6,518 nt of DNA from Thiotrichaceae bacterium (GTDB lineage: Bacteria; Pseudomonadota; Gammaproteobacteria; Thiotrichales; Thiotrichaceae). This document shows positions 2,565 to 6,038 of the stretch, in pieces (the first letter of the stretch is position 1; each line of letters begins with the position of its first letter). The notes under the pieces are model-generated. The model ran no database searches, was not told where the DNA came from, and was given only the letters and a program-made list of their open reading frames with translations. The stretch is from contig JALVRY010000110.1 in NCBI GenBank assembly GCA_027024625.1, forward strand, positions 1 through 6,518, in the 5' to 3' direction. The translations under genes and the position numbers were made by a program.

Positions 2565-3692
<1,128 letters not shown>

Positions 3693-3909: not shown

Positions 3910-5193
3910 ATGAATAAATTAATAAAAAAATCAGTACTACCTACAGCCATTTTAATGGCAGTAGTCTCTCAATCAGCATTTGCAACAAATGGAATGGCAC
4001 CAACTGGATTAGGTCAGGCACATAAAGCAATTGGTGGTGCTGCGGCAGGTACGCCGATCAATACTATGAGTATGGCAACCAATCCTGCTGCAGGCGCTTT
4101 TATCGATGATGGTTGGGACGTAGGCTTGGAGGTTTTTAAGCCAAATAGATCTGCAAAAATTGCTGGTACTCCCTTTGGTTTTCTAGATGGTGATTTTACT
4201 GGAGACGAAGACTCTGCTTTTCTTATCCCTGAAGGTGGTTATAAAAGAACTGTAGGTAAATATGCTGTTGGTGTTACCGTATACGGTAATGGTGGCATGA
4301 ATACTAATTTTGCTGATAATCCTTTTGATCCTCTATGCTTAGCTGGATTGGGGCGTTCATGTGGTAATGGCGGTATAGATTTCCAACAATTATTTATATC
4401 ACCCGCTTTTGCAGCAAAAATCACTGAAAATCAAAGCGTTGGTATTTCTGCCAACCTTGTTTACCAAAAATTTAAGGCATACGGTCTAGATGCATTTGGT
4501 GCATTGAGCTCATCTCCAGCTAATCTATCTGGTAATGGTTATGACTCTGCAACGGGTATTGGGGCAAGTATTGGTTGGCAAGCAAAGGCATCAGATGATG
4601 TAATGGTTGGTGCATCTTATCGTTTCAAGACGAAAATGGGAAAATTTGATAAATACAAGGGCTTGTTTGCTGATCAAGGCCAGATGGATGTTCCTGCTGC
4701 ATTGACATTAGGCATGAGCTGGAAAGCTGGATCTAAGACAACAGTTTCAGCAGATGTACAACGAATTTTCTACAGTGATGTCGGATCTATCGGAAACAAA
4801 ACACCAACACCAGGTTTCCCCGGTGGCGTCGCTTTTGGTGGAACTGATGGCCCAGGTTTTGGCTGGAATGACCAAGATGTTATTAAAGTGGGGGTTAGAC
4901 ATCAATTAAATCCAAAAGTTGCATTAATGGCTGGATATAACCATGGTAACAACCCAGTGCCTGAAAATAACACCTTGCTTAATATAATTTCTCCCGCTGT
5001 TGTTGAAGACCACCTTTCTTTAGGTGCTGAATGGAAGCTAGATGATAAGTCAAGCATCATTGCCAGTTATACACATACATTTAGTAACACACTAGAGGGT
5101 GTAAATTCATTAGCTGGGCTAGGTTTATCAGGAGAAGCTGATATTAAAATGGATCAAGATGCTATTGGTATAGGTTACAGTAGAAAGTTCTAA
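3910..5193 (+). CDS. OmpP1/FadL-family outer-membrane hydrophobic-compound channel
   Basis: Outer-membrane beta-barrel of 427 residues that in this family carries long-chain fatty acids or hydrocarbons across the outer membrane. A Sec signal peptide (1-25) ends in AFA before TNGMAP. The mature N-terminus shows the FadL plug signature: GLGQAHKAIGGAAAG (33-47) and NPAAG (58-62). The rest alternates polar and hydrophobic residues as in beta-strands, includes the typical GFGWNDQDVIKVGVRHQL segment (316-333), and ends in ...GIGYSRKF with terminal Phe, the usual BAM recognition end. Cys143 and Cys151 lie in a probable outer loop and may form a disulfide. The ATG at 3910 follows GGGGA (3901-3905) closely, with AGGAG further up at 3892-3896. 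It stands alone, bounded by a strong terminator. The substrate is unknown, so no symbol is given; FadL, TodX-like and other members share this level of similarity. Confidence 0.93.
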   Translation: MNKLIKKSVLPTAILMAVVSQSAFATNGMAPTGLGQAHKAIGGAAAGTPINTMSMATNPAAGAFIDDGWDVGLEVFKPNRSAKIAGTPFGFLDGDFTGDEDSAFLIPEGGYKRTVGKYAVGVTVYGNGGMNTNFADNPFDPLCLAGLGRSCGNGGIDFQQLFISPAFAAKITENQSVGISANLVYQKFKAYGLDAFGALSSSPANLSGNGYDSATGIGASIGWQAKASDDVMVGASYRFKTKMGKFDKYKGLFADQGQMDVPAALTLGMSWKAGSKTTVSADVQRIFYSDVGSIGNKTPTPGFPGGVAFGGTDGPGFGWNDQDVIKVGVRHQLNPKVALMAGYNHGNNPVPENNTLLNIISPAVVEDHLSLGAEWKLDDKSSIIASYTHTFSNTLEGVNSLAGLGLSGEADIKMDQDAIGIGYSRKF

Positions 5194-5199
5194 ACAAAT

Positions 5200-5227
5200 A
5201 AAAAAACGGGGCTTGCCCCGTTTTTTT
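5200..5227 (+). terminator. Strong intrinsic terminator of the FadL-like gene
   Basis: A GC-rich stem CGGGG/CCCCG around a CTTG loop (5212-5215), extended by A/T pairs to about 11 bp (5201-5211 with 5216-5226), and followed directly by seven T. It begins seven bases after the stop codon. The upstream A run would also make it work on the minus strand, though no minus-strand gene ends here. Confidence 0.95.
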
Positions 5228-5248
5228 ATGTCCGTTATCTGAAGAAAA

Positions 5249-5290: not shown

Positions 5291-5454
5291 ACCTGAATCT
5301 GTGACTTCACTACGGCAGATAGCACAAGCTACTGATTACACAGCGGTTTAAAAAATGCCCGTTTAGCCTAGGGGTGAAGCTAAGATTTTTTAAAATCCAC
5401 CGTGAAACCAATATCTTGTGCTCTCTTATACGCATTGAAGTCACGGATTCAGGT
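5291..5454. mobile_element. 164-bp imperfect palindrome, MITE-like
   Basis: The ends 5291-5309 and 5436-5454 are inverted repeats matching at 18 of 19 bases. Pairing continues inward: AGCACAAG (5321-5328) with 5415-5422, an 18-base segment 5329-5346 with 5397-5414 (12 of 18), and TTTAAAAAAT (5347-5356) with 5385-5394 (10 of 10). A 28-base tip (5357-5384) holds a small TTAGC/GCTAA stem. The trinucleotide ATA flanks both ends (5288-5290 and 5455-5457), as expected of a target-site duplication; TATA is the flank if the first A is left outside. No open frame lies within. Non-coding size, terminal inverted repeats and a possible duplication fit a miniature inverted-repeat transposable element; a dispersed palindromic repeat of ERIC or Correia type is the alternative. 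The parent transposase is not visible and copy number is unknown. Confidence 0.72.
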
Positions 5455-5459
5455 ATAAA
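5454..5459 (+). promoter_or_regulatory. Candidate -10 box at the palindrome junction
   Basis: TATAAA is formed by the last base of the palindrome (T5454) and its flanking ATAAA. It would place transcription start about 15-20 bases before the SCP2-like start codon. No good -35 hexamer lies 16-18 bases upstream, so this is weak. Confidence 0.25.
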
Positions 5460-5483
5460 TAAAGAAACACCAAGGAGACGATT

Positions 5484-6038
5484 ATGTTTAAAAAGATATT
5501 ACTAGGAACAACAATTGCGTTTATGGCTACTACCGCATCCGCTGACAATTTTATGAGTCCTACATGGGCAAAGGCTGCCTGTGCTGCATGGAATAAAAAT
5601 GCAACATTAACAGGTGAGTTAGGTGGCGATACATGGGCGGCCAACAACAATAAACGCGGCTATAAAATTATCCAAATGTATCGCACAGAATGTGGTAACG
5701 CAACTAAAGTGCAATTAACAATAGAAGACAAAGATGGTAAAGCCATGTGCACCTATGGCGGAGCACCTGATGGGAAAAAACTAAATACCAGCTACGACTA
5801 CATCATGAATGCAACTGACAAGCGTTGGACTGAATTGGGTGAGGGTAAATATGGTCCAATGAAAGCAATGATGTTTGGGCGCTTAAAATTTAAAGGACCT
5901 AAAACTGAAGCGATGAGTGTGATGGGAGCTTTTGGCTCATTCCTTAAATTAGCCGGTGGCGTTCCTGGTGAGAAAGGAAAAGATCACTGCCCAGTGATTC
6001 CTGATACAAAACAAGCTTCACCTGAAGCAACAAAGTAA
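5484..6038 (+). CDS. Secreted SCP2-like (sterol carrier-type) protein
   Basis: A 184-residue protein with a cleavable signal peptide (1-20, ending ASA before DNFMSP), so probably periplasmic. Residues about 60-157 resemble the SCP2 sterol-binding fold: strands around YKIIQMY and KVQLTIEDKDGKAMC, then YDYIMNATDKRWTELGEGKYGPMKAMMFGRLKFKG, matching the SCP2 pattern of a Trp-containing helix followed by a GRLKFKG strand, and a last hydrophobic helix (AMSVMGAFGSFLKLAG). SCP2 domains bind lipids in a hydrophobic tunnel; the ligand here is unknown. Four cysteines (33, 70, 89, 168) could form two disulfides, fitting an oxidising compartment. The ATG at 5484 has AGGAG (5473-5477) six bases upstream, a strong site. 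The start lies 29 bases after the MITE-like palindrome. The family call is from motif memory only. Confidence 0.78.
   Translation: MFKKILLGTTIAFMATTASADNFMSPTWAKAACAAWNKNATLTGELGGDTWAANNNKRGYKIIQMYRTECGNATKVQLTIEDKDGKAMCTYGGAPDGKKLNTSYDYIMNATDKRWTELGEGKYGPMKAMMFGRLKFKGPKTEAMSVMGAFGSFLKLAGGVPGEKGKDHCPVIPDTKQASPEATK

Follow-up and report, generated by a model that had tools for sequence, protein, structure and literature searches.

The window analysed here, a stretch of 6,518 nucleotides from the draft genome of a Thiotrichaceae bacterium, contains a 162-bp, gene-free, multicopy miniature inverted-repeat transposable element (MITE) bounded by 5-bp direct repeats and likely moved in trans by a transposase of the IS1380 family. 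We put the probability of this reading at about 0.9. That the element is a MITE rests on its presence at many unrelated sites with common borders and target duplications, and on an uninterrupted counterpart of one of these sites; it is short, has inverted ends and holds no gene. The preliminary description of this DNA had already taken it for a non-autonomous mobile element of this kind, and the same evidence upholds that view. Its position and parts are given in Table 1, together with the genes on either side.

Table 1. Coordinates of the MITE, its parts and its neighbours in the window
Feature	Position	Strand	Remarks
MITE	5292..5453	.	162 bp, CCTGAATC...GATTCAGG; border common to 100 distinct full copies
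Left target duplication TATAA	5287..5291	+	read directly; 5-bp rule from copies and empty site
Right target duplication TATAA	5454..5458	+	read directly; 5-bp rule from copies and empty site
Left terminal inverted repeat, 18 bp	5292..5309	+	one base unlike right end
Right terminal inverted repeat, 18 bp	5436..5453	-	identical to first 18 bp of the IS1380-type element of G016
Non-coding core, quasi-palindromic	5310..5435	.	predicted single long hairpin when single-stranded
FadL/TodX-type outer membrane transporter gene (PF03349)	3910..5193	+	upstream of MITE
Terminator-like hairpin after FadL gene	5198..5229	.	scan places it on minus strand
SCP2-domain protein gene (PF02036)	5484..6038	+	downstream of MITE

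The start codon of the SCP2-domain gene lies 30 bp from the MITE. Elsewhere in the window are genes for a queuine tRNA-ribosyltransferase (2565-3683) and a Na+/H+ exchanger (1230-2468), and a partial frame at 3-572 which, by eye only, we take to be helicase-like.

A palindrome of 164 bp at 5291-5454 had been described at first. The locus was right and the length was not, since alignment of the copies with their flanks places the outermost A and T of that span within the flanking repeat TATAA, so that each border of the element proper lies one base further in. The palindrome itself and its matching inverted ends are borne out: the arms at 5291-5314 and 5431-5454 (24 nt) are 88% complementary, and folding of the 164 nt gave z scores of -8.1 on the plus and -10.5 on the minus strand against 200 dinucleotide shuffles, none of which was as low. 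As also described earlier, there is no coding frame, that is, no open reading frame (ORF) of 50 or more amino acids within the element; a 69-aa frame on the minus strand (5441-5650) overlaps its right end by the end of the frame only. No Rfam family matched the window at gathering score, and a consensus scan found no promoter near the MITE.

The window's own genome (G000) is a draft of 2.61 Mb in 490 contigs, 83% complete and with 6.6% contamination. A BLASTN search of this genome, the check put forward in the preliminary description, found the element to be multicopy rather than a single copy conserved at one locus, with 60 matches when both orientations are counted. From these, 22 full-length copies were extracted that are 78-100% identical to the copy in the window. 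With up to 3 mismatches allowed, the genome contains 146 occurrences of the 19-base end motif, against 1 of a reversed-pattern control.

To define the target duplication, copies at 182 places (55 of them partial) were compared and reduced, by removal of those with N, with short flanks or in duplicate, to 100 distinct full copies, all from loci fetched for MITE ends or IS1380 matches and therefore not a random sample. Each repeat length was tested in turn: the flanks repeat exactly over 5 bp in 70 of these copies, over 2 bp in 23, over 4 bp in 3, and over 3 bp and 6 bp in 2 each. In 85 copies the flanks agree at no fewer than 4 of the 5 bases, and an exact 5-bp repeat is absent in 30. When flanks were shuffled among copies (2000 shuffles), a mean of 5.0 and a maximum of 13 copies had an exact 5-bp repeat. 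The form T-N3-A accounts for 56 of the 70 exact repeats. A 3-bp duplication, ATA, had been suggested for the window copy; ATA does stand at both ends, within the 5-bp TATAA, and a duplication of 3 bp was rejected on the counts at the true border (2 copies vs 70 for 5 bp).

A search with joined flanks yielded one empty site, the only match across the junction among 96 queries. The copy in question (locus L171, 241-401) belongs to G016, a family-level relative, and has TAAAG on either side. Joined through a single TAAAG, its flanks give gap-free alignments of 61-71 bp spanning the junction, at 80-90% identity, with at least 4 other places (L192, L115, L206 and L213, all on contigs of G016, plus shorter matches). 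The MITE at L171 is thus an insertion into a member of a second dispersed repeat of G016, whose uninterrupted copies carry the single 5-bp target. This empty site is at a different locus from that of the window copy.

At the window's own locus, the spacers between the FadL and SCP2-domain genes of relatives are too diverged for an exact junction, and no exact empty site is shown for the window copy. The spacers of G002 (132 bp compared) and G026 (63 bp) align to the MITE no better than shuffles do, and a hidden Markov model (HMM) of the family found no match in the spacer pieces of G002, G026 and G035. For the 181-bp spacer of G001 the local alignment score was 44, where shuffles averaged 27.4 and 3 of 1000 scored as high, and the family HMM score was no better than shuffles. 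This spacer (L124, G001:C30) has a weak MITE-like similarity and is possibly a relic.

The ends had at first been said to match no family that could be named. This no longer holds: judged by their sequence, they are of the IS1380 type, and several IS1380-family elements have ends in CCTGAATCCGTG. Solo ends of the MITE type in G016 led to a longer IS1380-type element, which starts CCTGAATCCGTGACTTCA and then runs for 107 bp to an ATG (L090, 1502 to 1609). It has 18 of 18 terminal bases in common with the MITE, and the similarity between the two is confined to the ends. At L094 (G016:C140) the same 107-bp spacing recurs and the frame continues, matching the IS1380 model NF033539 at 58 bits. Of the two frames tested on contig C108 of G016, the larger matches NF033539 at 225 bits (cut-off 180) as well as Pfam DDE_Tnp_1_4, and the smaller has no Pfam match and scores 56.6 bits against NF033539. 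Altogether G016 has 8 matches to the IS1380 transposase, one of them above the cut-off, the copies being broken or cut by contig ends. The ends of the element have differing outer flanks at differing places. The same 18-20 bases recur at a second type of end (L081 and L132), probably the right end of the element; no single contig joining both ends was found in G016. On C108 (L129, near 260-400) the start of the transposase in one IS1380 copy is directly followed by another repeat-like insertion.

The same end occurs in IS1380 elements of other bacteria. Plasmid elements annotated as IS1380 in Magnetococcus, Aromatoleum (ISAzo40) and Halomonas end in CCTGAATC[C/G]GTG, and at this border ISAzo40 alone of the three has an exact 5-bp repeat (agtta). 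An IS1380 element on a plasmid of Methylomonas koyamae has the CCTGAATC end at one side only. In G197, a class-level relative, a 1690-bp IS1380 element has these ends in all 6 of 6 copies and an exact 5-bp repeat in 3 of 6, and in G212 CCTGAATC stands at both ends of the element, without an exact repeat. No such end was found in the stretch examined at the IS1380 loci of G070 and G073.

End motifs of the MITE (up to 2 mismatches) are present in 14 of 63 genomes of the family, each of which has between 1 and some 200 matches, and reversed controls gave none. Exact ends were found in at least 98 stretches of the GTDB records, mainly from Thiotrichaceae metagenome-assembled genomes (MAGs); Methylomonas, Crenotrichaceae, Methylococcaceae, Methylophaga and Aquificaceae are further names among the matches listed. 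Some carrier MAGs therefore bear names of methane- and methanol-oxidising bacteria. Eight named genomes chosen from these matches have between 2 and 35 end matches; Methylophaga has two, both from a single 54-bp shortened form. The name 'Aquificaceae bacterium MAG 28' (QOAQ01; L156, L179, L193) is probably wrong, and its counts are as in the family genome G063. Plasmid and phage records held no match to the MITE, and viral contigs did not contain the left-end pattern of the insertion sequence (IS). In G058, which has about 200 end matches, those listed vary at the inner bases of the ends (GTGAGTCCA, GTGAGGTCA), and a given copy often shows the same change at both ends, as though the two ends of a subtype had changed together.

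Horizontal spread of copies between genera is likely, because copies from different genera, G000:C363 (L015) and G016:C183 (L231), are 97.6% identical over 170 bp without a match between their flanks; contamination of MAGs (6.6% in G000) is a caveat to this comparison. Beyond the MITE nothing else aligns between the two loci, bar the palindromic self-match. The L231 copy has a neighbour from the window's genome at 98.1% in the family alignment, in which the nearest-neighbour comparison counted an own-genome copy, L040, among those of other genomes. When the FadL-SCP2 stretch of the window was used as the query, all G016 matches among those listed fell at the MITE.

In addition to full copies, the loci examined contain 33 shortened forms of 28-70 bp that keep the ends. 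Their flanks form an exact 5-bp repeat in 16 of the 33 and match at 4 of 5 bases in 8. The junctions, read by eye, are those expected if CGGAT or TTCA direct repeats in the 162-bp form had served as deletion endpoints, and this suggests that the shortened forms are products of decay in place. Two lengths, 31 bp (11 of 33) and 47 bp (8 of 33), recur in several genomes, many of them with the 5-bp repeat, and could on these grounds be separate miniature mobile elements instead of decay products, which is a side question compatible with the main reading. We regard separate elements as rather unlikely, given the fit of the junctions to those direct repeats and the fact that, of the second end, the 31-bp form has kept no more than about 10 bp. 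Longer forms of 181-197 bp are present too, and one copy (L075 333-517, G016:C33), which reaches the contig end, contains CCCCTATTAT units in tandem within the right arm.

The assignment to IS1380 has to be weighed against the distribution of its transposase. The window's own genome, an 83% complete draft, gave no match to an IS1380 transposase, and the solo ends inspected there as candidates for an autonomous element proved to be either shortened MITEs or single ends lacking an IS1380 gene. IS1380 is above the cut-off in 3 of the 63 family genomes, of which G016 alone carries the MITE. Accordingly, of the 14 family genomes in which MITE ends occur, only G016 exceeds the cut-off, weak matches fall below it in 2, and 11 are without any match. 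A separate search of ten carrier genomes, of which several are probably identical to family genomes, gave no match above the cut-off. All are fragmented MAGs, from which IS contigs may have been lost. This scarcity of the transposase in carriers is what would be expected if another IS family mobilised the MITE and the likeness of its ends to IS1380 were a convergence. We consider this highly improbable, as the MITE agrees in every one of its 18 terminal bases with an IS1380-type element from the same family, and both the core end and the 5-bp length of the repeat recur in unrelated IS1380 elements.

The hairpin raises another alternative, namely that the element is no transposon derivative, but an intergenic repeat maintained by the host, such as a REP- or ERIC-like regulatory or RNA-processing hairpin under selection. 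Of the 100 copies, 90 are 156-168 bp long; 74 of these entered the family alignment and 16 were omitted by hand for size. With the pairing drawn from one copy, 93.5% of cells in the 74 copies are paired (91.4 in shuffles), and two-sided changes affect 13 pairs and 90 cells vs 7.9 and 31.5 in shuffles. The hairpin is kept while both arms change, perhaps through selection, through templating of one arm on the other or through common descent. At several pairs the switch is wholesale from one subfamily to another, which implies few events; slid controls reached as many as 17 pairs changed on both sides, though with at most 25 cells, and the RNAalifold consensus is weak, with two-sided change in 0 of 23 pairs and no covariation support. 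A place outside genes would also suit a host repeat: 70 of 76 testable copies (24 of the 100 being too near a locus end) lie outside ORFs of at least 100 aa, called mechanically in six frames, although ORFs of that size make up 75.5% of the loci. The same bias is, however, expected under selection against gene breakage. The 5-bp target repeats and the empty site, the patchy occurrence within the family and the near-identical copies between genera with unrelated flanks all argue for a mobile element, and we judge maintenance by the host to be extremely improbable. There is also a bolder form of the mobile-element reading, in which a previously unreported IS1380-type MITE family has spread between genera and between orders among gammaproteobacteria of the sulfur and methane cycles as a mobile RNA hairpin that is actively kept. 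We hold this to be speculative and unlikely, and are just as doubtful of its further proposal that the arms change together through mutual templating or that the host uses the RNA hairpin in untranslated regions.

For an IS1380-derived MITE, the mechanism would be as follows. An IS1380-family transposase would bind the shared 18 bp at both ends of the MITE and move it in trans, being supplied by an element with the same terminal 18 bp; the shared terminal bases make this mobilisation likely. Insertion would take place at A+T-rich sites by a 5-bp staggered cut. Copies would likely also transfer between genera and, once inserted, decay where they lie through deletions that join short direct repeats across the hairpin. 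If so, a MITE family gains a named likely partner in the IS1380 family. The MITE is nearly unchanged between genera, and the course of palindrome decay may be readable from the graded shortened forms.

Elements of this kind, MITEs, are already known, and the one in the window is a further member. Our literature search on MITEs in Thiotrichaceae found none, and one on Thiothrix with MITEs returned nothing beyond work on aphid symbionts. Within the IS1380 family, ISEcp1 has an end of the CCTGAATCCGTG type, and ISAzo40 is like the MITE in both this type of end and the 5-bp repeat. Members of the IS1380 family are about 1.7 kb long, whereas the MITE, at 162 bp, is without a transposase gene and has only terminal bases in common with them. 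Two further members share the 5-bp repeat with the MITE: IS1247, with a DR of 5 (PMC3281130), and ISArsp10, with ends CCTTGATCC and a column for a 5-base repeat (PMC6305408). The excerpted text of PMC9330008, PMC4133298, PMC3281130, PMC9208149, PMC11578231, PMC3542288, PMC6305408 and PMC10813416 contains no MITE assigned to IS1380. Among the miniature elements described elsewhere, MITEPye1 of Paracoccus yeei is likewise short, non-coding and intergenic, with inverted ends, direct repeats and a long predicted RNA stem-loop; it is attributed to a different IS family, IS1182, and has 1-3 copies per chromosome, whereas the MITE of the window has far more copies and occurs in several genera (PMC11578231). 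The Correia elements (CREE) of Neisseria are also MITEs with A+T-rich target repeats, but their repeat is mostly TA and less often 3-5 bp (PMC9330008). The Tn3-derived miniature elements (TIMEs) are non-autonomous and have a repeat of 5-6 bp, as the MITE has, but they differ from it in their 38-bp ends of Tn3 type, their length of 262 bp and their usual presence as a single copy (PMC4133298).
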